A stretch of 32,053 nt of DNA from Archaeoglobi archaeon (GTDB lineage: Archaea; Halobacteriota; Archaeoglobi; Archaeoglobales; Archaeoglobaceae), in assembly GCA_029259335.1 (NCBI GenBank), contig JAPDIY010000004.1, positions 1-32,053 of the forward strand, in the 5' to 3' direction. A model generated the notes under the pieces. That model had not been told where the DNA came from. It saw only the letters and a list, made by a program, of their open reading frames with translations, and made no database searches. The position numbers and the translations under genes were made by a program. Position 1 is the first letter of the stretch. The number at the start of each line of letters is the position of its first letter. Positions 1,651-25,560 of the stretch are shown here, piece by piece.

Positions 1651-1870
1651 AAGAAGAAGTGTAAAACAACAAGTATAAAATTTTCGTGTAACAATATAAT
1701 TTCAGTAAAAAATTTCAGTGTAAAAGTGACGAAATGTAATTTCAGGGTTACAATTTTGCATGTTCTACAGCGTATCTCACTTTAGTATTCTCCATTCGAT
1801 TTCATATTTTATGAAAAAAACTTATCTTGTAAGACGACTAATATTCATCCCCAAGCTGGAGGTGCGAGAA

Positions 1871-2155
1871 GTGCTTGATGTCGAGTTGCATGATAACAGA
1901 TACAGAAGAAGAACGGAGATCCTGAAGATACTGGCAAGAAGTGGTGTCGGTGACATACTCTCCAGCCTTGAAGCCAGCCCTCGTAAATTCTCCCAACTGA
2001 TGTTTGAGACGAAGCTGAACCCGGGAATGCTCAGCAGACACTTAAAAACACTGACAGAGCACTCCATTATAGAGAAAAACTCCGATATCTACGAGCTGAC
2101 TGAAAAAGGCCGCATACTTTTCGAGATTCTTAAAAAAATAAATAAAATATTTTAA
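1871..2155 (+). CDS. Small winged-helix (HTH) transcriptional regulator; start uncertain (1811 ATG or 1871 GTG)
   Basis: RRTEILKILARSGVGDILSSL...FSQLMFETKLNPGMLSRHLKTLTEHSIIEKNSDIYELTEKGRILFEIL resembles archaeal wHTH. GGAGGTG at 1858-1864 is well spaced for GTG 1871. Paralogous to 5676-5978. Confidence 0.8.
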   Translation: MLDVELHDNRYRRRTEILKILARSGVGDILSSLEASPRKFSQLMFETKLNPGMLSRHLKTLTEHSIIEKNSDIYELTEKGRILFEILKKINKIF

Positions 2156-2195
2156 TTTATTTTTACAATATCTACCTATACAATTCACAAAGGAG

Positions 2196-2209
2196 TTTCA
2201 TTTTTGAAA
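2196..2209. promoter_or_regulatory. TTTCA-TTTT-TGAAA palindrome upstream of CheW-PAS fusion gene; candidate operator
   Basis: Read directly. A TATA-like AAATTATACT follows at 2241-2250. Confidence 0.55.
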
Positions 2210-2293
2210 TTTTCGAATAGTATTGTATCTCCAAGCAAAAAAATTATACTGTCTGAATCCTACAGTATACACCTCCAGAGAAGGGCGCGGAGT

Positions 2294-5538: not shown

Positions 5539-5557
5539 CTAATATATAATATATTCC
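5539..5557 (-). promoter_or_regulatory. Candidate TATA box for the mcp at 4363-5478
   Basis: AT-rich ATATATTATATATT on the minus strand between the palindrome at 5568-5587 and the mcp start. Confidence 0.5.
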
Positions 5558-5567
5558 TTCATAAAAG

Positions 5568-5587
5568 AAATTTCATTTTTGAAATTT
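5568..5587. promoter_or_regulatory. 20-bp perfect palindrome AAATTTCA-TTTT-TGAAATTT upstream of mcp; candidate operator
   Basis: Read directly; 8-bp perfect arms. 5571-5588 is identical over 18 nt to 2196-2213. Confidence 0.6.
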
Positions 5588-5675
5588 TTAACAAGTAAAT
5601 ATTATAAAGCGAAAAACCATCGAATAAGTATCCAAGACAGATCAAATGTAAGAAAGGTTGGAAGAAACCAGCCAA

Positions 5676-5978
5676 TCAAAGCGCATTCACGACTTCCAGT
5701 AAAATACGGAGTACCTGCTCACCTTTTGAAGTTAAAATGTACTTCCCCCCATTTTTGCTGACTATGCTGTGGGTTATAAGAACTTTTAGCAGTTTATTCA
5801 GAACGCTCGGACTCAGCTTAGATCCAAACATTATTTCCGTAAATCCTGCAGGATTTCTACTTAAAACTACCAGAATTTTAAGCGACCCGGGATGTGTTAC
5901 GGCTTTATAAGCTTCCAGCTTCCCGTCAATGTCCTCTATACTGAACATAACTTTCCTAGTAAGTCGATTAAGGTACAT
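5676..5978 (-). CDS. Small winged-helix transcriptional regulator (paralogue of 1871-2155); start may be 5948
   Basis: FTEIMFGSKLSPSVLNKLLKVLITHSIVSKNGGKYILTSKGEQVLRIL aligns with FSQLMFETKLNPGMLSRHLKTLTEHSIIEKNSDIYELTEKGRILFEIL. Confidence 0.8.
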   Translation of the reverse strand: MYLNRLTRKVMFSIEDIDGKLEAYKAVTHPGSLKILVVLSRNPAGFTEIMFGSKLSPSVLNKLLKVLITHSIVSKNGGKYILTSKGEQVLRILLEVVNAL

Positions 5979-6020
5979 ATTAATCTTACGGTTCGATAAT
6001 ACTCATCGTAATACATTTTG

Positions 6021-6034
6021 TTTCAAAAATGTAA
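6021..6034. promoter_or_regulatory. TTTCA-AAAA-TGtAA variant of the palindrome, between divergent wHTH and vapB genes
   Basis: 13/14 match to the reverse complement (TTTCAAAAATGAAA) of the sites at 2196 and 5571. Confidence 0.45.
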
Positions 6035-6086
6035 TTCAAAACAAAAAGACCAAACATTTATTAAAATTGGAGAAAATAAGTTAAAT

Positions 6087-6275: not shown

Positions 6276-6697
6276 TGGGTGTGATAGCCGATGCGTCGGT
6301 TGTCTACGAATTACTTTTCGGTAAGCAAAACGGTGAATACCAAAAGCTCAAAGAGATGATCACTGATGGAAAAATAACGCTGAGAATTCCCGATACAGTC
6401 AGATACGAAATTTTCGAGACTATTATAAAGAAGAGGGTCGAGCCGAAATACCTTCAACGATTACTTTCTCTTATCACCCAATTCTTGGAATGTGTAACTG
6501 TTGAGATGAATGTCGACCAGCTTTCAAAAGCTGCTGAGCTGTGTAAAAAGCTGGAAGTAAACCTGTCGTCTGCAGCGTGCCTGATCCTCGCAACCACATT
6601 CGGTGAGTTATACGTTACAGCCGATACCTCAGTCGCGGATAAGCTAAAAAAGAATGGATATCCTGTCCTCCACATTAAGGAGCTCTTCTCTATTTAG
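6275..6697 (+). CDS. vapC: VapC-type PIN-domain ribonuclease toxin
   Basis: MGVIADASVVYELLFG...RYEIFETI...YVTADTSVADKL keeps PIN acidic residues; start codon overlaps the vapB stop. Confidence 0.9.
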   Translation: MGVIADASVVYELLFGKQNGEYQKLKEMITDGKITLRIPDTVRYEIFETIIKKRVEPKYLQRLLSLITQFLECVTVEMNVDQLSKAAELCKKLEVNLSSAACLILATTFGELYVTADTSVADKLKKNGYPVLHIKELFSI

Positions 6698-7496
6698 TTT
6701 TCTGGTAAATTTTTTCTCTCAGGTTTATGCACTCAAATTTACCCTTAAATCCGGCCGGAAGCGTTTCGCTTTTACCTATTATCAAATACCCCCCATCAAC
6801 AAGAGCATTGTAAAAGTCATTAACAACCTTTGTTTTCTGCTGTTCGCTAAAATATATCATGACGTTCCTGCAGAAAACACAGTCCAGATATCTCGAAACC
6901 GGTTCCTCTGTCGTTAGATCGTGCTTTTTGAATCTAACATACTTCTTCAAAAACTTCTTCACCCTGTATCCGTCATCTTCCTTCTCGAAATACTTGTTGA
7001 TGAGCATCTTATTCAGATTCTTAAGCTGAGTAGGTCTGTAGAATCCCTCTTTCGCCATTTCGAGGCAGGCATCGTCGATATCGGTAGCGTAGATGGATAC
7101 AAGCCATCCCTCACCCAAGGCTTCGAGGGCGCATATGGCTATACTGTACGGCTCTTCACCACACGAGCATCCGGCACTCCAGAAACGAACGATATTGCTC
7201 CTGACCTTCTCCTTCCTTTTTGCTATATCTGGCAACACTACCTTCATAAAGAACTCGAACGGCGTTCTATCTCTCATGAACTCCGTAACGTTTATAGTAA
7301 TTGTGTTAATCAACTTGTGAATTTCCTCATTTCCGTTGTTTTTCAGCAGTCTCAAGTACTCTCCGTAATCGCTTATTCCAAGCATTTTCATCCTAAGCTC
7401 AATCCGCCTTCTTAGATAACTCTCCCTGTACTGCCGAAGGTTTATTCCAGACTCTCTGCTAACGTAATCTACAAGAGTTTTAAACGCTAAATCCAC
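6690..7496 (-). CDS. cheR: CheR protein-glutamate methyltransferase
   Basis: RFWSAGCSCGEEPYSIAICALEALGE..., VFCRNVMIYFSEQQKTKVV, GGYLIIGKSETLP are CheR signatures. Confidence 0.97.
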   Translation of the reverse strand: MDLAFKTLVDYVSRESGINLRQYRESYLRRRIELRMKMLGISDYGEYLRLLKNNGNEEIHKLINTITINVTEFMRDRTPFEFFMKVVLPDIAKRKEKVRSNIVRFWSAGCSCGEEPYSIAICALEALGEGWLVSIYATDIDDACLEMAKEGFYRPTQLKNLNKMLINKYFEKEDDGYRVKKFLKKYVRFKKHDLTTEEPVSRYLDCVFCRNVMIYFSEQQKTKVVNDFYNALVDGGYLIIGKSETLPAGFKGKFECINLREKIYQKTK

Positions 7497-7963
7497 AATT
7501 CACCACCCTTGCTGTACTTTACAAGCATTCTTCCATCGTTTGTGAAGAAATAAACAGTTCTCCCCTGATTTCCACCTATGTCTTCCGACACGAGCCTTAT
7601 CCCGTAGTCCTTCAATACTAACTTTACAGCCTCTGCATTCCTGTCCCCTATTTTTAACATATCCATCGTCATGTGCTTGAATATCTGCGCCCCTCCAGCC
7701 ATCTTTGCAATAACCCTCTTTCTGTCACTCCCGAGTCTTTCCATTGCCTCCATCATCATCTCCACAGCATGATCGGCGTATTTGGCACTCCTCTTCGTGC
7801 CGTTATTGGATTGCGGAAGCATGACATGGGCTAAGCCGCCAACTTTGATTACTGGATCGTAGAGAGCGATGCCTATGCACGAGCCAAGGCCAATTGTTTT
7901 CAGAACTGCACCCTTCGCTACTCTGAACTCGCCGACACCCACCAGTATCTCGTTGCTCATCAT
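7487..7963 (-). CDS. cheD: CheD receptor deamidase
   Basis: LKTIGLGSCIGIALYDPVIKVGGLAHVMLP with catalytic Cys/His; KMAGGAQIF. Confidence 0.97.
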   Translation of the reverse strand: MMSNEILVGVGEFRVAKGAVLKTIGLGSCIGIALYDPVIKVGGLAHVMLPQSNNGTKRSAKYADHAVEMMMEAMERLGSDRKRVIAKMAGGAQIFKHMTMDMLKIGDRNAEAVKLVLKDYGIRLVSEDIGGNQGRTVYFFTNDGRMLVKYSKGGELWI

Positions 7964-8568
7964 TCCACCATTCCGAGCAGCTGGAAGATGTAGTTCACAA
8001 ACCTCTCATTCGGAACCAGCATCACGAGGATTTCTATCTCATCTTCACTCTCTTCAAGTTTCGTCTCGAATACAACTACGTAATCACTTTTATCCGCCAG
8101 CTGAGAGACTATGGCATCTATAACAGCTATCGCAAAATCTCTCCCGAAGCTCGGTGGGGTTGGGATTAGGGTTACTCCAAGCATTTCTGCTGTAGCATCG
8201 CAGAATGCCGAAGACAGAATGTTTCCTATCTCCATCAGTGTCGAATCCGCCATCTCCTCATCACTGCTGTCTCCAAGAAGGATTTCTACCAATTTCTGCG
8301 ACGATTCTTCCGGGAACGTTATGTACAGGAATCCTGCCTGTCCGTTTTCGATGTCATCTAGCCCTGTCACAACTCCAGCAACCATCTTCTCCGCATCGAT
8401 AACTTTGTGCAACTCCTGAATTCTGACTACCATTGCATTCGGCACGCTCATCTCGATCGTCCTGCCGAGCATCTGGGAAAGAGACGTTGCTGCCTTGCCA
8501 ACTCCAATATTCCCCAACTCCTTAAGCGCATCAAGTTCCACCTCGCCCAGCTCCTCAATACTACGCAA
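7960..8568 (-). CDS. cheC: CheC CheY-P phosphatase; probable TTG start at 8568
   Basis: ELGNIGVGKAATSLSQMLG and MEIGNILSSAFCDATAEMLG carry both E-N active-site motifs; GGAGGTGA precedes the TTG. The listed ORF extends to 8628. Confidence 0.95.
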   Translation of the reverse strand: MRSIEELGEVELDALKELGNIGVGKAATSLSQMLGRTIEMSVPNAMVVRIQELHKVIDAEKMVAGVVTGLDDIENGQAGFLYITFPEESSQKLVEILLGDSSDEEMADSTLMEIGNILSSAFCDATAEMLGVTLIPTPPSFGRDFAIAVIDAIVSQLADKSDYVVVFETKLEESEDEIEILVMLVPNERFVNYIFQLLGMVE

Positions 8569-10528
8569 GTCTATCACCTCCCAACAAACTCGATATATCC
8601 AAAATTGGCACGACCCTACCATCACCAAGAATTGTTACCCCGCTAAACCCTCTTATTTTAGCCAAATATCCCGTTAAGGGCTTAATAACAATTTCCTGCT
8701 GTTCGGCAATTGTATCCGCTATTAGGGCATACCTCTCCCCCTCCCTCTCCACAATTATCCCAACTTCCCTCTCCGGCTTACCATCCACAACGTTGAATAG
8801 ATCTCTCAGCTTGAAGGCAGGAACAAGCTTTCCACGGACAATCAAAAATGGATTACCATGGATTACTTTCCAGTTGTCCTCCGTGACATAGAGAGCTTCA
8901 ATAACGCTCGATATCGGTATCGCATACGTCTCATGACCGACCTTTACGAGCAGCGATTTTATTATCGCCACAGTAGGCGGAAGATGTATCCTTATCTTCG
9001 TTCCTTCACCCTTTTTGGAGCTGATTCTCACACTTCCTCCAAGCTTTTCAACAGTTGTCTTAACAACATCCATTCCCACTCCTCTCCCAGAGATCTCAGT
9101 CGCTTTATCTTTCGTCGAGAAACCGGGAGCGAAAATCAACATCTTCAGCTCATCCTCGCTCATCGACTCTGCCTCAGCCGGAGTGATTATTCCTTTCTCT
9201 ACGGCCTTCTGCTTGATTTTCTCAACATCTAACCCTCTTCCATCGTCCTCAAGCTCTATTATGATGTTGTTCTTCTCCCTCCATGCAGCCAGTCTTATCC
9301 TGCCAACTTCACTCTTTCCAGCAGCTTTTCTCTCCTCAGGAGATTCGATGCCGTGATCAACAGCATTTCTGACAAGGTGTATGAGTGGATCACTTATCTC
9401 ATCGAGAACGGTTCTATCAAGCTCAGTATCAAGACCCTCCATCACAAACTCAACTTTCTTTCCAAGCTTTCTTGCCAGATCCCTGACCATTCGTGGGAAT
9501 TTGTTGAACACCCTCTCGACTTTCACCATCCTTATCTGCATTATCTCGTCCTGAAGACTCGTGATTGACTTATCCATTATTGAAACTGCTTCTTTCAATT
9601 CAGGGATGTCGTATTCGGTTGCAATCTGCAAAAGTCTTCCCTTACTTATAACGAGTTCACCGACAAGATTCATTATCGTATCAAGCTGAGCTATGTTAAC
9701 TCTAATGCTCTCAAATTTCCTGTCTTTTTTCTTGAGTAGTTTGCCCCTTCCCTCTTCCTTTACCTCTTTAGCCTTATCCCACTCTGTTTCCCCCTCTCTG
9801 ACCTCTCCAGCCTCAATTTCGCCTTTTACCTCAGTCTTCTGCTCCTCAAGTAGAGAAACTTCAAATCTGTCAACTTCAGCAATCTTACTCATCACATCCT
9901 CTATCTTGCTAACATCAGGAGCTTTGATGAAAACGGTAAAATGACCGTCAAAATCTTCTTTTTCCATGTCATTTTCGTCAGGTATAACAGCCAAAATCTC
10001 AGATACCTCGCTTAGATTTTCGACAACAAGAGCTGCTCTTACACTTTTCATTATGCAATCTTCGCTCAGATAAACATCAACCCTTATGTTTGCATTTCCA
10101 AAACTCTCCTTACTCAAATCTACTTCCCTAACCTGTTCCTTATCTTTTTTCTCCTGCATGAACTCGCTCAGATCTGAGATGATGTCGGAAACGTTTATAT
10201 CATCACTGTCCTCCTCCTCTATCTTGTTTATCATTTCCTCTATGGCATCCACAGCTTTCAGCATCACATCCACGATCTCACTGGTGATCTCAATTTCCCC
10301 ATCCCTAACTTTACCCATTGCACTCTCAAGCTTGTGACAGAGCTCCTCAAGGTTCTTGTACCCCATAAAACCGGCCATACCCTTGATTGTATGCGCTACC
10401 CTGAATATCTCGTTTATAGCATTGAGATCGCCATTCTCAAGCTTGATGAAATTCTGATTCATCAGATCAAGATACTCTCTTGCTTCCTGAATGAACTCCT
10501 GCTTGTACTCTTCCATATCACCCTCCAT
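8561..10528 (-). CDS. cheA: CheA histidine kinase
   Basis: P1 Hpt FRVAHTIKGMAGFMG; P4 LVRNAVDHGIE, DDGRGLD, GRGVGMDVV; C-terminal CheW-like P5. Confidence 0.98.
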   Translation of the reverse strand: MEGDMEEYKQEFIQEAREYLDLMNQNFIKLENGDLNAINEIFRVAHTIKGMAGFMGYKNLEELCHKLESAMGKVRDGEIEITSEIVDVMLKAVDAIEEMINKIEEEDSDDINVSDIISDLSEFMQEKKDKEQVREVDLSKESFGNANIRVDVYLSEDCIMKSVRAALVVENLSEVSEILAVIPDENDMEKEDFDGHFTVFIKAPDVSKIEDVMSKIAEVDRFEVSLLEEQKTEVKGEIEAGEVREGETEWDKAKEVKEEGRGKLLKKKDRKFESIRVNIAQLDTIMNLVGELVISKGRLLQIATEYDIPELKEAVSIMDKSITSLQDEIMQIRMVKVERVFNKFPRMVRDLARKLGKKVEFVMEGLDTELDRTVLDEISDPLIHLVRNAVDHGIESPEERKAAGKSEVGRIRLAAWREKNNIIIELEDDGRGLDVEKIKQKAVEKGIITPAEAESMSEDELKMLIFAPGFSTKDKATEISGRGVGMDVVKTTVEKLGGSVRISSKKGEGTKIRIHLPPTVAIIKSLLVKVGHETYAIPISSVIEALYVTEDNWKVIHGNPFLIVRGKLVPAFKLRDLFNVVDGKPEREVGIIVEREGERYALIADTIAEQQEIVIKPLTGYLAKIRGFSGVTILGDGRVVPILDISSLLGGDRLA

Positions 10529-11567
10529 TCAACTTCACCTCCAGAAAACGAACTATTTCCTCGGCAATCTCAAAAACCGGCTTGACTGACACTATACCTC
10601 CAAGCTCGATCGCCGCCTTTGGCATACCAAAAACAACGCACGTGTCTTCGCTACTTGCTATTGTTAGTCCTCCCCTGTCTTTTATCATTTTCATCCCGTA
10701 AGCTCCGTCTTCACCCATTCCCGTCAGTATAACCCCCACAACGTTTTCGCCATACGCTTGAACAACCGAATCTGCTGTTACGTCAACTGAGGGTTTCACA
10801 GCGTTAACAGGTTCTCCATCCACAATTTTTATTCGAACAACATTGGTAGCTCTTCTAACCTTCATGTGATAACCGCCGGGTGCGATGTAAACAACACCGT
10901 CCTTAACTTTCTCATTGTTTTCAGCTTCTTTAACTTTAACTTCGGAGATGTTATCAAGCCTCTCGGCAAGTTGTTGGGTAAAGCCCGGAGGCATATGCTG
11001 AACCACAAAGATTGGTGCAGGGATGTCCGCAGGCAGTCTTGGAATTATCATCTCAAGCGCTGATGGACCGCCGGTTGAGGAACCTATCAACACACAAACA
11101 TCTCTGGTTTTCTTCCCCCAACTACCTCTGACGACTTCTCCCTTAATTTTCTTGAGGTTTTGGAGTCGCAATATGTTAAGAGAAGTCGTTGCAGCCATTC
11201 TTACCTTCTCCACAATCTCTTGTTCTATAGAAGATAAGTCCACAAGAGCGCCACCGGGTTTTGTAATAAAGTCAACTGCACCAAGTTTCAAGGCTTCTAG
11301 GGTTTCCTTGGCCCCCTCCTTCGTCAAAGAACTCAACATCACAACAGGAGTTGGTTGTTTCTCCATTATCAGCTTCAATGCTGTAAGCCCGTCCATCACT
11401 GGCATCTTTATGTCTAAGGTGACCACATCGGGTTTCAGTTTGAGAGTTTTTTCTACTGCCTCCTTTCCATTCTTTGCCGTGTCAATTACCTCTATTCCCG
11501 CCTTACTCAGTATGTCGCTTACGGCCATTCTTACCAGCGCTGAATCGTCAACTACAAGCACCCTCAT
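10518..11567 (-). CDS. cheB: CheB methylesterase/deamidase response regulator
   Basis: Receiver domain DVVTLDIKMPVMDG; esterase GSSTGGPSALE, VQHMPPGFT, GMGEDGAYGM. Confidence 0.98.
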   Translation of the reverse strand: MRVLVVDDSALVRMAVSDILSKAGIEVIDTAKNGKEAVEKTLKLKPDVVTLDIKMPVMDGLTALKLIMEKQPTPVVMLSSLTKEGAKETLEALKLGAVDFITKPGGALVDLSSIEQEIVEKVRMAATTSLNILRLQNLKKIKGEVVRGSWGKKTRDVCVLIGSSTGGPSALEMIIPRLPADIPAPIFVVQHMPPGFTQQLAERLDNISEVKVKEAENNEKVKDGVVYIAPGGYHMKVRRATNVVRIKIVDGEPVNAVKPSVDVTADSVVQAYGENVVGVILTGMGEDGAYGMKMIKDRGGLTIASSEDTCVVFGMPKAAIELGGIVSVKPVFEIAEEIVRFLEVKLNGG

Positions 11568-11573
11568 GGTTCT

Positions 11574-11939
11574 CTAACTCATTCCAGCAACCTTCTTCAG
11601 TTCCTCAATGACCTTCGGTGCTTGGAATGGTTTCACTATGTATCCCTTGGCCCCCAGCTTGATTGCCGTCTTCACCATCTGTTCCTGCCCAACAGCCGTA
11701 CACATCACCACTTTTGCTTGTGGATCCATCTTCTTTATCTCCTTCAACGCCTCTATTCCGTTCATCTCCGGCATAACGATATCCATTGTAACCACATCCG
11801 GCTTCAACTGTTTGTAAAGCTCCACTGCCTGCTTTCCGTTTTCCGCTTCCCCTACTATATCAAAACCTCCCGAAAACAAGATATTTCTCAAAAGCTTCCT
11901 CATAAAGGCCGTATCATCCACAATCAAAACTTTCGGCAT
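11574..11939 (-). CDS. cheY: CheY response regulator
   Basis: MPKVLIVDDTAFMRKLL...DVVTMDIVMPEMNGIEAL...KGYIVKPF stand-alone receiver. Confidence 0.97.
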   Translation of the reverse strand: MPKVLIVDDTAFMRKLLRNILFSGGFDIVGEAENGKQAVELYKQLKPDVVTMDIVMPEMNGIEALKEIKKMDPQAKVVMCTAVGQEQMVKTAIKLGAKGYIVKPFQAPKVIEELKKVAGMS

Positions 11940-11945
11940 GGCCTA

Positions 11946-12755
11946 TCACCTCACCGCAGCTTTTTTCATAATATCATTAACAAGAGCCACACCCCTCGGT
12001 GTGAGCTCAATTTCCTTCCTTATCTTCACAACTCTCGCCAAACCCATATCAACCAGCTTATCGTAGAGTTTGTTCAGCTCCTCTGTGGATATACCGAGAA
12101 TTGACTCGACACCAACCGAATCAACTCCCGTGTAAACCATGGTCAGTATCTGCTCTTCAACCTCCGAAAGCTTGTCTTTCGGCTTGTACGTGTCTATAAT
12201 GTTCTGGATGTAGTTCTGAAGCATTTCAAGAGTTGTCTCGGGACACAGAACGAAGCTTGTAATAACCTCCCCGTTTTCAACATGAGTTATAACAAGTACA
12301 ACTCTCTGCTTCTTGCCCACAGTTCTGAGATCCTTTTCCACTGAGCCCAAGCTATCTACGGAGATACGGATTTGCTTGGAAGACGACAGGAACCACAAGG
12401 CTTCATCAGTTATGCACAGATACCCTTTGTCCCACTTGCTGTCTTTAACGACCACACCACCACGAGTGGCGGGTGAAAGGAAGTATACCGCAAACCTATC
12501 CGATTTCAGATTGAACGCCAGATACCTGAAAATCTGATCCTGAGTCTTTCCAAAGCTGATGTAATAGTTCTTGTTGTCCTTTTTTATTCTGATAGCATTT
12601 TTACCTTCATACTGCACTTTCTCGAGATCCTGTATGTCCTTAAAGGGAATCCTTACTCCAGCGAAGGATAGCGAAGTTTTATCTACAACCGCTTCACCTT
12701 TCTTCCATCCACCATCAAAGTACTCCACTGGAAATCTCAGTACTTTCTCACTCAT
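11946..12755 (-). CDS. cheF: CheF-like archaeal taxis protein linking Che to the archaellum (DUF439 family)
   Basis: MSEKVLRFPVEYFDGGWKKGEAVVDKTSLSF... with C-terminal winged-helix-like segment; position next to cheY. Confidence 0.85.
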   Translation of the reverse strand: MSEKVLRFPVEYFDGGWKKGEAVVDKTSLSFAGVRIPFKDIQDLEKVQYEGKNAIRIKKDNKNYYISFGKTQDQIFRYLAFNLKSDRFAVYFLSPATRGGVVVKDSKWDKGYLCITDEALWFLSSSKQIRISVDSLGSVEKDLRTVGKKQRVVLVITHVENGEVITSFVLCPETTLEMLQNYIQNIIDTYKPKDKLSEVEEQILTMVYTGVDSVGVESILGISTEELNKLYDKLVDMGLARVVKIRKEIELTPRGVALVNDIMKKAAVR

Positions 12756-12767
12756 AGCCTACCTCTG

Positions 12768-13256
12768 CTACTTTAATCTCTCCACCTCATCCTCACTCAA
12801 CACCTTATTCAGGTCAATCATAATCAGCAGTCCGTCCGGTAGCTTTCCGACACCCTTGAGGAACTTCGCTTCTTCTCTCGCCGTTATTATATTCGGCAAA
12901 GCCTCGATGTCAGATACTGAAAGGTACTTCACCTCATTGACAGTGTCAACCATCATGCCTATTACTGCATTCTCAAACTCAACGACGATGATCCTCGTAT
13001 TGTTGTCAATTGGCTTTGGTTCCATTCCGAACCGCTTTCTCAGGTTTATTATGGTGGTGATCTGCCCGCGGAGGTTTATCACTCCCTCAACAAAATCTGG
13101 AGCGTTTGGGATCCTCGTTATCTGCGTCGGTCTTATTATCTCCCTCACCTGAGATATGTCCACACCATACCTCTCATCCCCAAGGTTGAACACTATCACC
13201 TGTACAGTTTCATCACCCTTCAGCGTCTGAACACTTCCCGACTGCATTGAGATCAC
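12768..13256 (-). CDS. cheW: CheW chemotaxis coupling protein
   Basis: VQVIVFNLGDERYGVDISQVREIIRPTQITRIPNAPDFVEGVINLRGQITTIINLRKRFGMEPKP. Confidence 0.97.
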   Translation of the reverse strand: MISMQSGSVQTLKGDETVQVIVFNLGDERYGVDISQVREIIRPTQITRIPNAPDFVEGVINLRGQITTIINLRKRFGMEPKPIDNNTRIIVVEFENAVIGMMVDTVNEVKYLSVSDIEALPNIITAREEAKFLKGVGKLPDGLLIMIDLNKVLSEDEVERLK

Positions 13257-13268
13257 CTCCCAAAAAAA

Positions 13269-16612
<3,344 letters not shown>

Positions 16613-16675
16613 CACTCTAAAAAAATTATTGTCCTGAAGAAAAGTCTTTTATCCTAAAAACCAAAAACAGCCAGT

Positions 16676-16834
16676 ATGAAATCGATAGATGCCAGCTTCG
16701 CAGCCATTGCGGTATTTTCAGCGGTAATGCTGACCTACAGATGGCTGTCGCTGTACGGGAAAACAGATTACGTGATAAACTTTTATGCCGGCATGCTTGT
16801 TGCCGCCATAGCTTTGCTTATCTTACGAAGATAG
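16676..16834 (+). CDS. Putative 52-aa small membrane protein (two hydrophobic segments)
   Basis: ATG..TAG reading MKSIDASFAAIAVFSAVMLTYRWLSLYGKTDYVINFYAGMLVAAIALLILRR; absent from the supplied ORF track (apparently a 60-aa cutoff); T/A-rich CTTTTATCC about 25 bp upstream. Confidence 0.5.
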   Translation: MKSIDASFAAIAVFSAVMLTYRWLSLYGKTDYVINFYAGMLVAAIALLILRR

Positions 16835-17491
16835 GCACTCGTATATCTTCTTGGACTCGATTTCAGCATCCGATAGCTGATCGAGAACCTCTTTAATTTT
16901 CCTTGCGCTCGTCTTTATCATCTCAAACCCCTTTCTCGTATCGATTTCATCTGCAATCTCTAAAACACCGGTAATAACCGACAGAGGATTTCTGAGTCGA
17001 TCCGATAGAAATTGAAACTGTTCGAGGTTTTCTTTGAGTCTCAATAGCACTAATTCTCGCTCAATCCACATTTCGAGATTTCTAATCGCCCTCGAAAGAA
17101 CAAGTACCATATCTTTCAAGATCTGAATGATTTCTTCATCAGCCTCCTTCAGGAAGATGTACACCGAAGATCCTTCTGTGATGGGTAGAGTGAGAAGATA
17201 CTTGTGTTTCACACCTTTACAACCGCAAGCTTTCGCATTTACTATACTGAAAACTTTTGGATGATATTTTAAATAATTGCAGCCCATTACGTCTTCATCC
17301 ATGCGATAGTGTTCACCCGTTTTATCAGACACCACAACGGCTGTGCAGCTTTCGTTTTCAAATACTTGGTCACAGAAAAAATTTATCATCTTCTCTCGTT
17401 TGTCGAACATCCACACATTGCTCGAAAACGTAAACGCTGTAAAAAGTAAATCGTTCATTCGCTTTAAACTTTCGAGGTCACTGTACATCAT
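16823..17491 (-). CDS. GAF-like - DHp-like (His replaced by Asp) protein, no kinase domain
   Basis: ENLEQFQFLSDRLRNPLSVITGVLEIADEIDTRKGFEMIKTSARKIKEVLDQLSDAEIESKKIYECLSS*; start overlaps the stop of the upstream gene (17488/17491). Confidence 0.75.
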   Translation of the reverse strand: MMYSDLESLKRMNDLLFTAFTFSSNVWMFDKREKMINFFCDQVFENESCTAVVVSDKTGEHYRMDEDVMGCNYLKYHPKVFSIVNAKACGCKGVKHKYLLTLPITEGSSVYIFLKEADEEIIQILKDMVLVLSRAIRNLEMWIERELVLLRLKENLEQFQFLSDRLRNPLSVITGVLEIADEIDTRKGFEMIKTSARKIKEVLDQLSDAEIESKKIYECLSS

Positions 17492-18156
17492 CTCACTTCC
17501 GCCAGAGCCTTCAGTCGCTGAAGCATCTCCTGAAGCTCTTTTTCAAGCTCTTCTGCTGAGAACTTCTGTCCCTTGAGGTCTCTGAGCAAATCTATTTCTT
17601 CCTCCTCCTTTACTTCAACCTCTTTTGCTATACTCGAAATCAAATCGTCCTCCTCGTCAAAGTCCACTTCTTCCACATCCTCTTCCTCATCCTCCTCTTC
17701 ACCGCTGTCATCCGGTACAAGCTTTATCTCATTCTCCAAGTCATCAACGTCCACATCAAGGTCGGAATTTAGCTCTGGAAGTTCAGGAACGTCGGGGAGC
17801 TTCATTTCCTCGCTTTCAGTTTCTGGAGCTGCAGGAGTTAGAGTGTTTGCGGTCTCCATCTCCTCAAGCAGATTGTCGTCAACCTGAACGGTTTTGACAG
17901 CATCGTCCAGCGGAACAATCTTTTCCTCTACTCTGTTCTCCCCTACATCCTCTTTCTTGCTCACTCCTGTAGATACAACTTCTTCAAGTTTCTCATCCAC
18001 TTCCTTTAACTTCTCCTCCACCTCCTTTCTCCTCAAAAAACTGAGTTTCGGAAATTTCAGTCCATGGCTCTTCCCAATCTTGTCGTGGAGATAGGGAAGA
18101 GCCAGAACGATTGCAGCAAAAACAACACCAACCAGCATTTCTATCATTTTTACCAC
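17488..18156 (-). CDS. N-terminally membrane-anchored, highly acidic protein at end of archaellum operon; function unknown
   Basis: MIEMLVGVVFAAIVLALPYLH (TM), basic patch, coiled-coil-like RRKEVEEKLKEVDEKLEEVV, long D/E-rich region, C-terminal helix SAEELEKELQEMLQRLKAL. Confidence 0.75.
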   Translation of the reverse strand: MVKMIEMLVGVVFAAIVLALPYLHDKIGKSHGLKFPKLSFLRRKEVEEKLKEVDEKLEEVVSTGVSKKEDVGENRVEEKIVPLDDAVKTVQVDDNLLEEMETANTLTPAAPETESEEMKLPDVPELPELNSDLDVDVDDLENEIKLVPDDSGEEEDEEEDVEEVDFDEEDDLISSIAKEVEVKEEEEIDLLRDLKGQKFSAEELEKELQEMLQRLKALAEVR

Positions 18157-18160
18157 CTCC

Positions 18161-19795
18161 CTAAGTTTCTACAAACGACGGAAGAGAGAACGCCCACTTT
18201 ACAAGTGGCGGAACGATGAGCATTAGGATTCCCGAGATTAACAGAAATATCGCACCGTAATACAAGTAAAGGTACCTGCCACCTCCCTTAACGATGTTCG
18301 CCGATAGGGTATTGGCAATTGTCAGTGAGATAATTATCCACAATGCGTACTGGTTGAGTAAGTCAACGGGTATTCCCGAGAAAATTCCGATGTTCAGTCC
18401 CTGCAGCCCACCGGGAACCTTGCTGAACACCTCTCCAGTGCTAACTCCTCCAAGTTGTGTGGCAAATAGATTTGAGATGTACTCTGAGAATATAGCAAGT
18501 ATCTGAGTTATGAACAGTATAAGGGCAACCATGGCCATATGCAGCGGAATAATTAGATTCACGAATCCAGAAGAGATTAAGTCTCTCTTAAGTCTCAACA
18601 GAACCATTTCGAGGTTCGATGAGGAGACTATCTCACCGACAACATCAGCATCACCTCCCAGATCAGTGGCATCAACAAATATTGCCGTCAGCTTGCTGAT
18701 CAAATAGCTACCGCTCTCCCCAGTGAATTTCTCCCATGACAACCTTGCGTCAAGACCCATGGCAAGTCTTCTATAAAGCTGTAAAACAAGGTCTTTTAGC
18801 TCTCCAAGGTTTTTCTGATCAATTCTGCTCAGTGCTTCAGCTACGGAAACTCCTGCTCCGGCTTTTATAGCACCGAGACTCCTTATAAATGTTGTAAATG
18901 CTTCATCCCTCTTGCTAATCTTAGTGTCATCTATCCTGCCAAGAATGCCAAGCGGGAGCATCAGCGCTCCTGCAAGAACGAATCCTATTCCCCTGAAGTC
19001 TACACCATTCTGTATGTATATATCAAGTAAGCTGGGTATGAAAGATAGTAAAACCAAGGATGCGATTGCTGGAGGAAGTAAAAGCGGTGTAAGTCGGGAT
19101 ATTATCCTCTGTTCCTTGGATTTTATTTTCCCATCATGGACTTTTTTATCCTTCGGTACGGCTTTGAATAGCATGAATACACCAAACAAGCAGATCACGA
19201 AATTCCCGAATGCTGAGCTGATTAGTGTGGAGCTAGGATCGCCAACACTGTAGATAACCACAGACAACAGTACTACTACAGAAATAAGAGAGGCTGAGAC
19301 GAGCAGAGACGTATAAGCATCACTCCATTTCCTCAAACTTTCGAGGTTCCTCTCATACTCATCCTTTCTGACAGTCTTGAAGGTCTTCCATTCCCTTTCC
19401 AGAAATTCGCTATCGGGTTCTCCAGCAGCAATTGCGTTTGCCAACCTGTTGAAAAGTTTTTTCAGTCTTTCATGTTTTATCTTCTCTGCTATCAGCTCGC
19501 AAGCGGTTGCATAATCGTAATGCCATTTTTGGGTCAGATCCTTTACTTTTCTGAAATACTTGCTCGGAGCGTATTCCTCTTTTTCCGACACCATCTCGAA
19601 GATCTTGTCTCTACTCAGGTTTGCAGTGGAGAGAGAAGCCATGTAGGTCAGCATGAATAGCAGGTCATTGTCCATTAGAAGCTCTTTACCTGAACTCCTG
19701 ATAATGTCCAGAATGTGGCCTAAAGCTGGCAATTTTCCAAATGTAATCTTTGGTATTTTCGTCGTCTTGAACTCCATCTCTACACCACCAATCAA
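18161..19795 (-). CDS. arlJ: ArlJ (FlaJ) archaellum platform membrane protein
   Basis: T2SSF-like integral membrane protein directly downstream of arlI; multiple TM segments. Confidence 0.93.
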   Translation of the reverse strand: MIGGVEMEFKTTKIPKITFGKLPALGHILDIIRSSGKELLMDNDLLFMLTYMASLSTANLSRDKIFEMVSEKEEYAPSKYFRKVKDLTQKWHYDYATACELIAEKIKHERLKKLFNRLANAIAAGEPDSEFLEREWKTFKTVRKDEYERNLESLRKWSDAYTSLLVSASLISVVVLLSVVIYSVGDPSSTLISSAFGNFVICLFGVFMLFKAVPKDKKVHDGKIKSKEQRIISRLTPLLLPPAIASLVLLSFIPSLLDIYIQNGVDFRGIGFVLAGALMLPLGILGRIDDTKISKRDEAFTTFIRSLGAIKAGAGVSVAEALSRIDQKNLGELKDLVLQLYRRLAMGLDARLSWEKFTGESGSYLISKLTAIFVDATDLGGDADVVGEIVSSSNLEMVLLRLKRDLISSGFVNLIIPLHMAMVALILFITQILAIFSEYISNLFATQLGGVSTGEVFSKVPGGLQGLNIGIFSGIPVDLLNQYALWIIISLTIANTLSANIVKGGGRYLYLYYGAIFLLISGILMLIVPPLVKWAFSLPSFVET

Positions 19796-21666
19796 ACCTT
19801 TATATTAAGCAATCCGCTCTTGTAGATCTTGGCAATCGATCTGAAGAATTCATAGAAGTCCGTAACTCCCTGTTCGTGAAGCTTCTTCAAGATCTTCGCC
19901 CTCTTCTCAACTTCCTCGTAAATCAGCTTCTTCTTGTTTGGTGGGATTCCGAGTCTGGTCGCAATTTTCTGCTCAAGTATGTACGAGCTACCGTATCCCG
20001 TGAACACGTGAGTGTCTGTAACCGGATCCCACTGAAAAACCTCGATAAAGGACACTCCACCTTTTTGCGGGTTGTATCCAACTATTTCACTCACACTCAG
20101 AACTCTTCTGACGAGTTTTCCGTCTGGTCTTCTAACTGCGCTCTGAATAACAACGAAGTTCAGATTGTCAATAAAGGTCTTGGGAACACTTATTGGCTCA
20201 GTTGTCAACCTCTGAATGAGCTTCTCAACCGTTGCTGCGTGGAAAGTTGACATGACTGGGTGACCTGTCTGCATAGCCTGGAACGCGATGTTACCCTCAA
20301 CACCTCTGATCTCACCAACCAATATGTAGTTGGGTCTCTGCCTTAATGCAGCTTTAAGCAAATCGAACATTGTAACATCGCTCCCGCCACCCTCTCCAAG
20401 TGTCCCCCCTCTTGTACTACCTCTCGTCACCTCCCTTGTCCAGTTCTTGTGCGGAACCTGGAGTTCGGGTGTATCCTCAATGGACACGATCTTAGCCTCA
20501 GGTCGAATGAAGGCGGTAATGGCATTTAGCAAAGTCGTCTTACCACTTGCAGTTTCACCACAGATGAAACCGCTCATGCCTTCGCTGATCAGCAACCATA
20601 GATAGCCTGCGATCATGTAATCGAGAGAGCCGAATTCGATGAGTTGGAGGACGCTGAAAGGTGTTTCGTTGAACTTTCTGATCGTAAAGTTGCTCCCATT
20701 CTTGCTTATATCGTTACCAAAAACGATGTTAATTCTGCTGCCATCCGGGAGAGTTGCATCAACAATCGGATCTTTGTACGTTACGGGCTTTCCTATCCTC
20801 TCAGCCAGCCTTATTATAAACTTGTTCAGAGTCTCCTCATCCCTGAACTCAATAACACTCTTCAGTCCTTTGAAAATCTTGTGTTCGATGAATATCGGCC
20901 CGAGACCGCTACACGATATATCTTCAATGTACTTGTCCCTGATGTACGGCTCAAGAACGCCGAGACCAACCTTATCCCTTATCAGAGCATATTCTAAAGC
21001 CTTGTACTGCTCTGCCGTAACCTTAAGCTTATCTCTGAACCCATTCTTTCCGTTTTTGCTAAAAAACAGTCCGAGTTTAATCTTAGGCAGTAACTTCGCC
21101 TCTCCTTTTGTATCCTCAACAAATGATTCCTCCTCTCCATCAACAATTTCACAGACTTCTTTAAGGGCTTCTTTGAGAATCTTTTTCTTCTCTTCGTCAT
21201 CTTCAGGGTCGAAATCTATGTCCGTGATGTAGTCAACAAGCCTGATTTCAACTTCTTTTAGCAGTTCATCAACACCTGTAAGTAGAGTGGGCTCAACAGG
21301 AATATAAAAATTCCTGACATCATTTTTGTCTGGATAGACATGGATGTATATCTGCTCATCTGCGGGATATATCAGATTCGGCCTATCCAAATCTCCATGT
21401 TTTTTCCTATCCAGCTTTGGAACGAATTTGGGTATCCCAATCTTATCGAGGGGGAGAATATGGAGGTACTCCAGTAAGTGGAGGTTCTTCTCAACTTCCT
21501 TCTTCATCCTGTCCGGTAGTAATTTGTATATCCCGCAGTTGGCGAGGTTCGTATGATCGTGATCTTCCTCAAGTACCCTAGGCTTGAACGGGAAGTTAGC
21601 AACCACTCCCTGTTTCAATCCTCTTGGCTTGTAACTGAAATCTATTTTGCTGGTCTCGGTCACCAT
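19792..21666 (-). CDS. arlI: ArlI (FlaI) archaellum motor/assembly ATPase
   Basis: Walker A CGETASGKTTLLNAI, Walker B-type LRQRPNYILVGEIRG, HPVMSTFHAAT; overlaps arlJ by ATGA-type coupling. Confidence 0.97.
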   Translation of the reverse strand: MVTETSKIDFSYKPRGLKQGVVANFPFKPRVLEEDHDHTNLANCGIYKLLPDRMKKEVEKNLHLLEYLHILPLDKIGIPKFVPKLDRKKHGDLDRPNLIYPADEQIYIHVYPDKNDVRNFYIPVEPTLLTGVDELLKEVEIRLVDYITDIDFDPEDDEEKKKILKEALKEVCEIVDGEEESFVEDTKGEAKLLPKIKLGLFFSKNGKNGFRDKLKVTAEQYKALEYALIRDKVGLGVLEPYIRDKYIEDISCSGLGPIFIEHKIFKGLKSVIEFRDEETLNKFIIRLAERIGKPVTYKDPIVDATLPDGSRINIVFGNDISKNGSNFTIRKFNETPFSVLQLIEFGSLDYMIAGYLWLLISEGMSGFICGETASGKTTLLNAITAFIRPEAKIVSIEDTPELQVPHKNWTREVTRGSTRGGTLGEGGGSDVTMFDLLKAALRQRPNYILVGEIRGVEGNIAFQAMQTGHPVMSTFHAATVEKLIQRLTTEPISVPKTFIDNLNFVVIQSAVRRPDGKLVRRVLSVSEIVGYNPQKGGVSFIEVFQWDPVTDTHVFTGYGSSYILEQKIATRLGIPPNKKKLIYEEVEKRAKILKKLHEQGVTDFYEFFRSIAKIYKSGLLNIKV

Positions 21667-21743
21667 ATTCTCCCCCTCCCTTGATGATTATTACAATTGT
21701 TATTACTATAGACTACTATGCAACTCTCATTTGATATACTTTT

Positions 21744-22478
21744 CTACGCCCTTGCCTCCGAAATCGGAATTATCTTCAGTCCAAATCCAGGATGGACTTC
21801 AAAGCTGACTATATTTCCTGTAGTCTTCTTTGCACCTCTTATTTTCGAAACTTCAAGCACGCTGACATACCTATCACCAACCTGCTCCTTCCTGAGGAAT
21901 AGATGACAGTCACAAGCAGATCGAATTCTGACTAGGGTGTCCTCTTTGAACGCATGCTGATGTAAGGTTATGAGAATCGTTTTGCCTGCATCACACAAGT
22001 TCTTCAGCCTCGTCAAGAATTCGAGGACGTCATCCTCTGTGGAATAAGTTGTGAACATCGTCAGCGAGTCAATTATTGCAATGTTTTCCCTAATTGTCTT
22101 TATGTGGTTTGCAACGAGGTTAAGAATGCTCCTCATCTGATCCGTGCTCCAGTCAATTCCTTCAAGATGTACTGGAAATATCCTCAGATAACCCCACGCA
22201 TAGAAATCAGACACATCGAGACTCAGAGACTCCATCTGCCTCAACAGACTTTTTATCGTGTTCTCTGTAGTGTAGTATGCAATGTTGTGCCCGCTCATCA
22301 GCCCACCATAAACGAACTGCTGACACAGCACGCTCTTCCCCGTATCATTCTCACCTTCTATGAGTGTCAGCGATCCAAGAGGTATTCCACCACCCAGCCT
22401 CTTATCTATCTCACCGTTTCCGCTTGAAAGGATATTTCTCCTCTTTTCTTCCTCAAGATCCGCCAAACTCTCAACCAT
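21744..22478 (-). CDS. arlH: ArlH (FlaH) KaiC-like archaellum protein
   Basis: LTLIEGENDTGKSVLCQQFVYG Walker A; NIAIIDSLTMFT Walker B-like. Confidence 0.96.
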   Translation of the reverse strand: MVESLADLEEEKRRNILSSGNGEIDKRLGGGIPLGSLTLIEGENDTGKSVLCQQFVYGGLMSGHNIAYYTTENTIKSLLRQMESLSLDVSDFYAWGYLRIFPVHLEGIDWSTDQMRSILNLVANHIKTIRENIAIIDSLTMFTTYSTEDDVLEFLTRLKNLCDAGKTILITLHQHAFKEDTLVRIRSACDCHLFLRKEQVGDRYVSVLEVSKIRGAKKTTGNIVSFEVHPGFGLKIIPISEARA

Positions 22479-22490
22479 CTAAACCACCTC

Positions 22491-22985
22491 CTACGGAATT
22501 CTGAAATCGTAACTATCGCAAACCGCATTAGGAGTGCAGAGGAGCAGAACGTAGCTCCCATTTGCGAGCGGCTGCGTTAGGGGCGAATCCAGTTTTGCAA
22601 GTTCGTGTGGGTCGAAAATGCCGGGGTTTATCAGTTCGTTAACGATTGTATAGCTCGTCGAGTTCAGGTAAAACGCTACCATGTCTCCGCTGTCAGTTTT
22701 GCCATACAGAATCGTATCGAACTCTGTGAAGTCGGGATATCTTTCAGCACCCGTATTCTTGAAATACGCTGTTATCGTGTTTGTAGAGTTGTCATACGTA
22801 ACGTTGATAATTGTTACATCGCTCCGCAGCTTTTTCACAGCCATCTGCACAGCTTCTTTATAGCTCTCAATTGAATACTCTGCTATCATAGTACTGCCAG
22901 CAAGGAAAGTATAAGCGACTGCCACGATGATTGCTGTGACCATTATCGCCGCCACCACTGTATCGAAGCCCATGAACATCACCAC
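22491..22985 (-). CDS. arlG: ArlG (FlaG) archaellum stator protein
   Basis: N-terminal TM helix GFDTVVAAIMVTAIIVAVAYTFLAGS, archaellin-like fold, position between arlF and arlH. Confidence 0.9.
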   Translation of the reverse strand: MVMFMGFDTVVAAIMVTAIIVAVAYTFLAGSTMIAEYSIESYKEAVQMAVKKLRSDVTIINVTYDNSTNTITAYFKNTGAERYPDFTEFDTILYGKTDSGDMVAFYLNSTSYTIVNELINPGIFDPHELAKLDSPLTQPLANGSYVLLLCTPNAVCDSYDFRIP

Positions 22986-23467
22986 GAGAAGTAATCACTT
23001 GCCTTTACACCGTTATACAGCACAAACGTCAGCAAATACTCGTCCTGTGGCATCTGAGTGGCCTCAATGTTCTCTACAGCAAACTTCAGCGTTTCCCCTT
23101 TCTCCCAGTAGTTGTCCCCGTCACCGTTCTCTATGGTAAACGTTACTTCAGGGTCCGAAGGTGTGAAATGCAGATACGCCGAATTTGATGTGAAGAATAT
23201 GTCGCTCATCCTTATTAGATCAGTGTCCAGCCGCGTACTTCCTGTATTCTTTACCCAGAAGTAGACGTTGACTGTAGTCGCATCGTAAGTGACTTTGATG
23301 AAGATTATTTCCATATCGGTCTCAACTTTTTCGTTTAGGTTTCCAGAAACCGAAGAGTAAGAGTGAGCGAGATCTTTAACTGTGGGCAAAATAACCATAA
23401 TAGCCGCAGAGACGGCTACTATTGTGGCTATCATCAATATTGATGTTGATATCACCTCCCTTGCCAT
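22979..23467 (-). CDS. arlF: ArlF (FlaF) archaellum stator protein
   Basis: N-terminal TM ISTSILMIATIVAVSAAIMVILPTVKDLAHSYSS; overlaps arlG. Confidence 0.9.
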   Translation of the reverse strand: MAREVISTSILMIATIVAVSAAIMVILPTVKDLAHSYSSVSGNLNEKVETDMEIIFIKVTYDATTVNVYFWVKNTGSTRLDTDLIRMSDIFFTSNSAYLHFTPSDPEVTFTIENGDGDNYWEKGETLKFAVENIEATQMPQDEYLLTFVLYNGVKASDYFSW

Positions 23468-23499
23468 TGTTATACCTCAACGCAGCCGCTCTCACAGCC

Positions 23500-24285
23500 T
23501 CACAGCCTCTTTTCGAGTATCAAGTTCAGCAGCTTGGAATCCATGCTCGTGTCCTGTGGGTTCATGAGCTTGTGCAGTCTGTAGAGTTCGAGCAGCATGT
23601 CCTCAAAGCCATCGTTCAGTGCTATCAGCTCTGCCAGCTTTGCGACAAAATCCTTGGCTTCCTCAGTTATGTATCCCGCAGCCTCAAACACTTCCAGCAT
23701 TATCTTCAGTGAGTCAATGCTGTATTTCTCAAGCATACCCTTAACCCACTCCATTAGATTGAACAGCGTAACAATGTCGTATTTAGTGAACATTTCTGGT
23801 TTCTGCCACCTCTCTTCGACTCCGGGCTTGGGTTCTGCCCTCTCCTTTCTTTCTATCTCATAAACCCCAACCTGAGGCTGCAAGCTATCACCCTCTTCTT
23901 TCGGCATCACCTCCCCAATACTTTCTTCACATCTGGCAACCTCATCTTCGGGAACATCCTCCAAACTTTCTTCCTCTTCCTTCTCCTCACCCTCTCCCTC
24001 TTCCTCCAAACTTTTCTCAGGCTCGGGGATCGCAGCAGGAATAACCTGTATCTGCGGCTGGGGTTGTTGCATCGTTGACAGTGCTCCTTCAGCAAGATTT
24101 TGCAAATTCTGGAACGGATTTTCGAGGTTGTTAAGCGTCTCCCTCAGATCCAACAGCAATCTCTTTACAGATCCTTTCAAAACGTCAAGTTCTTTCTCCA
24201 GCTTGTCGATTCTGCTCTCCGGGGTGTCAGCTTCAGCGCTCGCAAGAATCTCATCAATCGCTGCCTGATCAACAGTGTCCTGCAT
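23500..24285 (-). CDS. arlCDE: ArlC/D/E fusion protein of the archaellum (switch complex)
   Basis: N-terminal coiled coil IDKLEKELDVLKGSVKRLLLDLRETLNNLENPFQ (ArlC-like), Glu-rich linker, C-terminal ArlD/E domain TKYDIVTLFNLMEWVKGMLEKYSIDSLKIMLEVFEAAGYITEEAKDFV. Confidence 0.85.
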   Translation of the reverse strand: MQDTVDQAAIDEILASAEADTPESRIDKLEKELDVLKGSVKRLLLDLRETLNNLENPFQNLQNLAEGALSTMQQPQPQIQVIPAAIPEPEKSLEEEGEGEEKEEEESLEDVPEDEVARCEESIGEVMPKEEGDSLQPQVGVYEIERKERAEPKPGVEERWQKPEMFTKYDIVTLFNLMEWVKGMLEKYSIDSLKIMLEVFEAAGYITEEAKDFVAKLAELIALNDGFEDMLLELYRLHKLMNPQDTSMDSKLLNLILEKRL

Positions 24286-24323
24286 TCTATCACCTTTAAA
24301 AAATTTAAAAAATTGTTAAAAAT

Positions 24324-24941
24324 TTACTTGAGCAATACCATCACATCGTCGATGCTTGGCGGAGCCTTGAGCTCGATCGGGTAGCTTGCACCGACTGGTG
24401 GCTTGACCTCAATTATGAAGTCATCGTTGGGATCGATGCTGAATCCGGCATCTTTCAGATAGACTGTGACCTCAGCTTTCTCAAACTCTTCGAGATAGTT
24501 GTCCGGATTGCTACCCTGCAGACTATAAACCCAGTTGACGTAGTACTCAGTGGCCTTATTAAGACCTGTAGTATTCTTCTCATACGTTAGTTCCTTGTAA
24601 GATCCATCTGCCGGAACAAGCACTGTAATTATTGTCTTGTTCAGGTCAATTGGCTGTCCACCAGCGGCAAGCTGGAGCGTAAAGGTAACATTCTCGATCT
24701 GGTTCGAGCTTGTATCTCCAGTAGCAACAATGCTGCCAACAAGCTCCATGCTGCTCGTCGCCTGCTTGACACCAGTGTGCACAGTCTCCTGACCCTTCTG
24801 GGTGGCGAAGAAACCGGCGCCGAGCAGCACGTAGCTGAACACTGCCGCAACTGTAACGAACGATATCAGCACGATCGCAGCTTCAAGGCCTGTGAAACCT
24901 TTCATATCCTTACCAAATCTTGGCCACTTCATGGGCATCAC
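24324..24941 (-). CDS. arlB: Archaellin (second copy)
   Basis: Class III signal peptide KDMKG|FTGLEAAIVLISFVTVAAVFSYVLLGAGFFATQK. Confidence 0.95.
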   Translation of the reverse strand: MMPMKWPRFGKDMKGFTGLEAAIVLISFVTVAAVFSYVLLGAGFFATQKGQETVHTGVKQATSSMELVGSIVATGDTSSNQIENVTFTLQLAAGGQPIDLNKTIITVLVPADGSYKELTYEKNTTGLNKATEYYVNWVYSLQGSNPDNYLEEFEKAEVTVYLKDAGFSIDPNDDFIIEVKPPVGASYPIELKAPPSIDDVMVLLK

Positions 24942-24942
24942 C

Positions 24943-25560
24943 TCAGACGTATGTCAGATTCGTAAAGCTTGGCGGCAGCGTCTTGGTTATTGCTAGTGGA
25001 GCACCGATTGGTGGTCTAACTTCAATTGTTATGACATCGTTCGGACTCATGTTGCCTATACCCGACCACGCTGAATTTGTCACGTCGATAACGATTTTGT
25101 ACTTCTCGTTTGGCTCAACCACATTGTCTCCATCCCCAATCGTGTTCACATACCACCACGGGCAGTTAGTTCCAGGTGTACAGGACGTATTGTAGAACAG
25201 CTGCTTGTATCCTTCATCTGTAGTTATTGCTATCGACGTCTTGTTGAGGTCCACTGGAGAGCCGCCGGCAGTCTGCGTCACGTAGAAGTACACCATACCT
25301 ACCTGGCCGTTTGAACCCGTTGAACCACCTGCGGCAGTACTACAATTCAAATAGATGTACTGCCCATCCAGCGTCAGGCTGCTCGAAGCCTGCTTTACAC
25401 CAGTATCAACGACTTTCTTTGACTTCTGTGTGGTGTAGAAACCTGCTCCGAGCATGACGTAGCTGAAAACCGCTGCGACCACTACGAACGCTATCAACAC
25501 TATCGCCGCTTCAAGCCCTGTAAATCCCTTCTCATTTTTCAAAATTTTCCCTCTCCTCAT
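24943..25560 (-). CDS. arlB: Archaellin (first copy, promoter-proximal)
   Basis: Class III signal peptide KNEKG|FTGLEAAIVLIAFVVVAAVFSYVMLGAGFYTTQK. Confidence 0.95.
   Translation of the reverse strand: MRRGKILKNEKGFTGLEAAIVLIAFVVVAAVFSYVMLGAGFYTTQKSKKVVDTGVKQASSSLTLDGQYIYLNCSTAAGGSTGSNGQVGMVYFYVTQTAGGSPVDLNKTSIAITTDEGYKQLFYNTSCTPGTNCPWWYVNTIGDGDNVVEPNEKYKIVIDVTNSAWSGIGNMSPNDVITIEVRPPIGAPLAITKTLPPSFTNLTYV

Follow-up and report, generated by a model that had tools for sequence, protein, structure and literature searches.

All five archaellum and chemotaxis operons of the analyzed window, a 32,053-nt stretch of contig JAPDIY010000004.1 from an Archaeoglobus-like archaeon, are preceded by an array of short AATT-centered boxes, and the array, its phasing, position, conservation and gene set are established with high confidence. 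It probably acts as an upstream activating array through which the archaellum and chemotaxis operons of Archaeoglobaceae are co-regulated, putatively by a winged-helix (wHTH) protein carrying the FSQLMF...LNPxxLDRHLK signature.

Phased AATT-centered boxes precede the motility operons

The taxis cluster of the window genome (1.75 Mb, labeled G000) was resolved into five operons from protein families and gene order (Table 1), with GTG at about 2303 as the likely start codon of the CheW-PAS operon. The array unit is an 8-bp, quasi-palindromic box with the consensus GNAATTWC. The proximal box begins about 25 bp upstream of the TATA element and stops about 10 bp before the BRE, and the boxes follow one another upstream at 14-bp steps, with two boxes at mcp2 and three each at PAS-MCP and CheW-PAS. 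At mcp1 the step is 13–14 bp, while the arlB boxes stand at 0, −21, and −35, that is, at spacings of 21 and 14 bp. The CheW-PAS array is kept in the related genome G002.

Table 1. Operons, promoter arrays, and candidate regulator genes of the window
Feature	Position	Strand	Details
mcp1 operon	from 1650 downward	-	
mcp1 promoter	1667..1716	-	boxes 1709-1716, 1696-1703, 13 bp apart; TATA about 1671-1678
Possible degenerate site upstream of wHTH1	1798..1826	+	seen by eye against G002, G006
wHTH1, HTH_45 winged-helix, FSQLMF-type candidate regulator	1871..2155	+	start codon uncertain
CheW-PAS promoter	2192..2253	+	boxes 2192-2199, 2206-2213, weak 2220-2227, 14-bp steps; TATA 2244-2251
CheW-PAS operon	about 2303 to 3856	+	
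mcp2-cheW operon	5478 down to 3878	-	
mcp2 promoter	5542..5588	-	boxes AAAATTTC (5581-5588), GAAATTTC (5567-5574), 14 bp apart; TATA 5542-5549
wHTH2, divergent HTH_45 winged-helix protein	5676..5978	-	syntenic with mcp2 in several genomes
Weak candidate site, wHTH2/vapB intergenic region	6020..6066	+	in register with vapB TATA (6057-6066)
PAS-MCP, cheW, cheF, cheY, cheB, cheA, cheC, cheD, cheR operon	6690..16535	-	cheA, cheB, cheR assigned by position and order
PAS-MCP/che promoter	16555..16615	-	boxes 16608-16615, 16594-16601, 16580-16587, 14-bp steps; TATA about 16555-16562
Archaellum operon: arlB1, arlB2 ... ArlF/G-like, ArlH, ArlI, ArlJ-like	16823..25560	-	from families and gene order
arlB1 promoter	25602..25672	-	boxes 25665-25672, 25651-25658, 25630-25637, steps 14 and 21 bp; TATA about 25606-25613

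Two other features of the cluster were observed. A VapBC-type toxin–antitoxin pair (6087-6697, plus strand) lies between wHTH2 and cheR, unusual within a chemotaxis cluster, and its synteny is kept in at least six relatives (G002, G003, G004, G006, G007, and G028). Eight consecutive C (G when read on the mcp2 strand) at about 5488-5495 fall in the ribosome-binding region of mcp2, and the length of this run varies among species.

The palindrome marks the junction of adjacent boxes

The initial annotation had described the element as a TTTCA-N4-TGAAA palindrome acting as a motility operator. Its coordinates and identities all proved correct: positions 2196-2213 match 5571-5588 at all 18 nt, 5568-5587 forms a perfect palindrome (8+4+8), and against the complementary 14-mer 6021-6034 matches at 13 and 16598-16611 at 12 of 14 positions. 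Its list of sites was incomplete, the related arlB and mcp1 promoter sites having been overlooked. Each of the sites at 2196, 5571, and 16598 is a junction between adjacent boxes, 5568-5587 being that of the two mcp2 boxes. Since GAAATTTC reads as a palindrome in its own right, TTTCA-N4-TGAAA arises automatically wherever two boxes stand 14 bp apart. In orthologous promoters the palindrome arms erode (e.g., mcp2 of G003 and G006), and the AATT-centered boxes and their spacing stay. The palindrome is a poor description of the conserved element, although the sites themselves are real and non-random; the idea of a motility operator was largely right, but its unit had been misread.

Counts of the palindrome gave a mixed picture. 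In the window, exact TTTCAN4TGAAA occurred twice against 0.13 expected; with up to one mismatch it occurred six times against 2.9, a number reached in 8 of 100 shuffles, and with up to two mismatches 33 times against 32.8, i.e., with no enrichment. The genome-wide scan that had been proposed found the exact form enriched in G000, with 14 copies versus one of the reversed control pattern, but eight of these lay in long ORFs, two belonged to copies of a repeated element and two were at other non-motility places, so that motility promoters held just two, both in the window. With the loose form at chance frequency as well, the strict palindrome was dropped as a regulon marker. As a separate observation, the 14-mer TTTCATTTTTGAAA also occurs in two inverted copies of the repeated element (L010, and L012 at 1501-1514), unrelated to motility.

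The site at 6021, counted earlier as a member of the family, is partly conserved, being partly kept in G002, G003, G004, and G007 and gone in G006, but the conservation is weak, and the whole-genome array model R1 (see below) gave no match there. Nor did R1 match the possible site upstream of wHTH1.

Conservation and out-of-sample recovery of the array

Upstream regions of orthologous genes were compared across related genomes, among which G005 was taken to be A. fulgidus, G028 A. profundus, and G017 Ferroglobus. In an alignment of 17 sequences from four promoters, a gap was needed in one sequence only, and the proximal box was invariant at its G, AA, and TT. The array is conserved across Archaeoglobaceae. 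The phylogenetic footprinting suggested by the initial annotation bore out a conserved element in related Archaeoglobales, whose units are evenly phased AATT boxes lying about 25 bp from TATA, and the expected common cis element of taxis promoters was found just upstream of BRE/TATA.

For each promoter family in turn, a position weight matrix (PWM) limited to the box region was trained on the remaining three families and scored over 863,000 positions in 432 kb. The held-out window sites of mcp2, PAS-MCP, and arlB were located with p-values of 8e-6, 3e-5, and 9e-5, respectively, while mcp1 was weak (p = 8e-3). A simple rule (a box, 13–15 bp, G[AGT]AATT, and TATA 24–26 bp on) held at five places in the 432 kb, namely, three promoters of the window and, on both strands, that of a wHTH paralogue that had no part in making the rule, compared with zero to two on a Markov background and one on reversed sequence. 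Because the promoters had already been inspected when the rule was framed, this result counts as supportive only.

A sequence-only model, R1, was built from the 17 aligned sequences and first run on 12 whole genomes. At E ≤ 0.01 its matches were essentially motility promoters and two recurrent uncharacterized families only. In G000 these were PAS-MCP (3.8e-10), mcp2 (1.2e-8), mcp1 (2.3e-6), a gene on contig C24 (4.5e-6), arlB (5.2e-6), and CheW-PAS (0.0042), the last of which was absent from training. Further promoters outside the training set were also recovered: the archaellin (arlB) promoters of G008, G028, G021, and G029, cheY and mcp of G022, and PAS-MCP of G021 and G025. The reversed model R2 gave two matches at E ≤ 0.01 in the same 12 genomes, the best at 0.003, and its best in G000 was 0.18. 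R1 matches at E 0.01–0.1, for example at a hemL-like gene, a phosphate permease, an MFS transporter, and a tandem repeat of GGAAATT, were put down to chance, and the one in G013 (E = 0.0054) is doubtful.

Candidate winged-helix regulators

The products of the two window wHTH genes had been put forward for binding tests. Both products scored above the curated cut-off of 25.5 bits of the HTH_45 profile (PF14947; 44.0 bits for wHTH1 and 42.8 for wHTH2) and below that of 60 bits of the Sso10a family profile (NF053610; 40 and 39.6 bits). A fold model of the candidate regulator (pLDDT 82) matched wHTH folds, some of them ArsR-like, and the site is compatible with a dimeric wHTH factor, as had been proposed. 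wHTH1 shares a near-identical recognition region, FSQLMFxTKLNPxxLDRHLKxL, with C6 (G000:C6) and gene A (G000:C34), while wHTH2 is a more distant relative of this subfamily. The window proteins are plausible candidates, though not the only ones. It is unlikely that wHTH2 is the sole factor, since A. fulgidus has the arlB array and no close wHTH2 relative near its che genes.

Gene A has orthologues in all seven well-sampled members of the genus. In A. fulgidus the orthologue of C6 lies at 2148108-2148395 and that of gene A at 1622978-1623256. The promoters of C6 and gene A bear the array in the same register, suggesting autoregulation. Gene A forms with gene B a divergent HTH_45 pair beside a topoisomerase gene (G000:C34; L165, about 1657-2312), a position kept across the genus and in G034. 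In the complete genome of A. profundus (G028), where the arlB array is conserved, there is a single FSQLMF-type member, which adjoins mcp1.

The co-occurrence of regulator and array was assessed in 30 genomes, taking a match to alignment A3 at E < 1e-20 as a strong A3-type wHTH and R1 at E ≤ 0.01 as presence of the array. A strong A3-type protein was found in 19 genomes, 17 of which had the array (G011 and G030 being the exceptions), whereas none of the 11 genomes without it did, though nine of these have ArlH. Fisher's exact test gave p = 1.4e-6, or 6.7e-6 without the doubtful G013 and 0.002 when collapsed by genus, for a sample in which the genomes are not independent and several training genomes are among the positives. 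The wHTH genes often lie within the chemotaxis cluster, and the array also goes along with MCP genes, so the co-occurrence does not single out the wHTH from the system. On these sequence comparisons, the best candidate is the subfamily of small HTH_45/Sso10a-like wHTH proteins found together with the array, with about an even chance of being the factor, and several wHTH paralogues could share or compete for the boxes.

Additional genes linked to the array

Two further families carry the array. One is a protein of about 195 aa with an invariant W-x-LW-x-DA-x-VER motif (in G000 at G000:C24:20888-21472; L149, L167), which has no Pfam or NCBIfam match. Twelve gene copies were found in ten genomes, and just upstream of them R1 matched at E ≤ 0.02 in 10 of the 12 and at E = 0.11 in one, the remaining one being recognized by PWM only. 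The copy in G026, a genome without ArlH, is frameshifted. The structure model of this family is of low confidence (pLDDT 58), and its best fold match, PH0250 (2ekd; TM 0.41), is no more than a hint. The other is represented in G002, G004, G005, and G034 (L152, L153, L154, L158) by a secreted Ig-like protein, about 570 aa long, whose promoter is array-like; it is possibly a surface protein co-regulated with motility. If these assignments are true, the two families would be new motility-linked components.

A. profundus (G028; L156) carries complete arl and che genes with conserved arrays, despite its reported non-motility (PMC3035285). The array offers a handle on why this species has motility genes and yet is reported to be non-motile.

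Proposed mechanism and alternative explanations

The boxes lie at a fixed distance just upstream of the BRE, as known archaeal activator sites do, which by analogy argues for an upstream activating array that would help to recruit TFB; activation rather than repression is accordingly the likely mode. Dimers of the HTH_45/Sso10a-like FSQLMF...LNPxxLDRHLK protein would bind neighboring boxes, an arrangement and stoichiometry that we infer, and the box-bound dimers would contact TFB at the BRE edge and aid its recruitment; some FSQLMF-type proteins may also control their own genes. The 14-bp spacing, which is not a whole number of helical turns, is a point against this mechanism. It is possible, if rather tentative, that a set of HTH_45 paralogues, some of them encoded within the chemotaxis cluster and controlling their own genes through these boxes, acts as master regulator of archaellum and chemotaxis in Archaeoglobaceae by reading the 14-bp-phased AATT boxes and also commands the 195-aa and secreted Ig-like families.

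Chance palindromes in AT-rich intergenic DNA are a scarcely credible origin of the array. Although the loose palindrome occurs at chance frequency in the window, and exact copies sit in coding DNA and in a repeat element, orthologue conservation, fixed register, out-of-sample recovery and the reversed control refute chance for the array; for the 6021 site it is possibly still true. That the signal is a general Archaeoglobus core-promoter feature, such as an extended BRE, rather than a regulon signal is highly improbable and largely refuted: the model does consist partly of BRE/TATA, and BRE plus TATA alone also scores well, but the box-only PWM still locates held-out sites, and whole genomes yield a handful of matches, nearly all at motility genes.

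The sign of control and the identity of the binding protein bear on the other two alternatives. That the array serves as an operator to repress motility genes, or to control them with either sign, is quite unlikely, the arl and che boxes lying upstream of the BRE, in the archaeal activator position, and not over or downstream of TATA. It would nevertheless fit the extra AATTAC boxes between TATA and start codon at C6 of G000 and A. fulgidus, a repressor-like position, as well as the frequent repressor role of small wHTH and ArsR-like folds and the arrays borne by the reportedly non-motile A. profundus (PMC3035285). Binding by an EarA orthologue or another activator outside the HTH_45 subfamily, with the AATT boxes as the Archaeoglobaceae EarA site, is rather unlikely as well. 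The boxes share the BRE-relative place and tandem repetition of EarA sites, EarA is described as widespread in Euryarchaeota, and the distal arlB box of the window, AATTACATA, contains TACATA; however, most boxes read AATTTC, not TACATA, the array is also found at che/mcp operons, and its occurrence goes with that of the HTH_45 subfamily, several of whose members bear the array in their own promoters. If the FSQLMF family is itself EarA, this alternative merges with the activating array proposed here.

Comparison with known motility regulators

EarA sites in Thermococcales lie 9 nt upstream of the BRE in up to three repeats (PMC10665913), and in M. maripaludis four consensus EarA sites stand immediately upstream of the BRE, a weak one at which EarA is believed to assist TFB (PMC5512572). 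A wide distribution of EarA in Euryarchaeota has been described (PMC5512572, PMC10665913). Similar to the EarA promoters of M. maripaludis, P. furiosus, and other Thermococcales, the array combines tandem short boxes upstream of the BRE with a wHTH regulator, here a candidate, and an archaellin operon (PMC10665913, PMC5512572, PMC13286277), and repeated sites precede the BRE of the first archaellin gene, with arlB boxes at 0, −21, and −35 and TATA 25 bp on, a layout shared by many genomes. The consensus differs: in place of TACATA or A(C/G)(C/G)TACA(T/C), the array has an invariant G-N-AATT core with 14-bp phasing, and TACATA is confined to the distal arlB box of some genomes. The EarA motif was reported to be confined to the first archaellin promoter when compared with other arl genes of Thermococcales, a comparison that did not extend to che genes, and shared control of chemotaxis genes with the archaellum was posed as an open question (PMC10665913). 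In contrast, the array also stands at mcp, PAS-MCP/che, CheW-PAS, and two further families. In its working the array may resemble an EarA-type promoter; membership is not claimed.

CsmR of Haloferax volcanii is likewise a small winged-helix protein that regulates archaellum and taxis genes, but it is reported mainly from Halobacteria and as unrelated to EarA; it was compared by description only (PMC13286277). The candidate regulators resemble Sso10a/HTH_45 proteins in fold and profile; Sso10a, however, is described as a chromatin protein, the candidates fall under its NCBIfam cut-off (40 of 60 bits), and specific regulation is proposed here. In the open-access literature searched, no description of motility regulation or of such a motif in Archaeoglobus was found.

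Known motility control in Euryarchaeota is mainly that by EarA at the archaellum operon and by CsmR in haloarchaea. An upstream activator array at archaeal motility promoters is known, and what is new relative to EarA is the wider gene set and the new candidate regulator family. An array common to the operons for archaellum and chemotaxis provides a family of hyperthermophiles with a defined regulon that can be tested and has named candidate factors.
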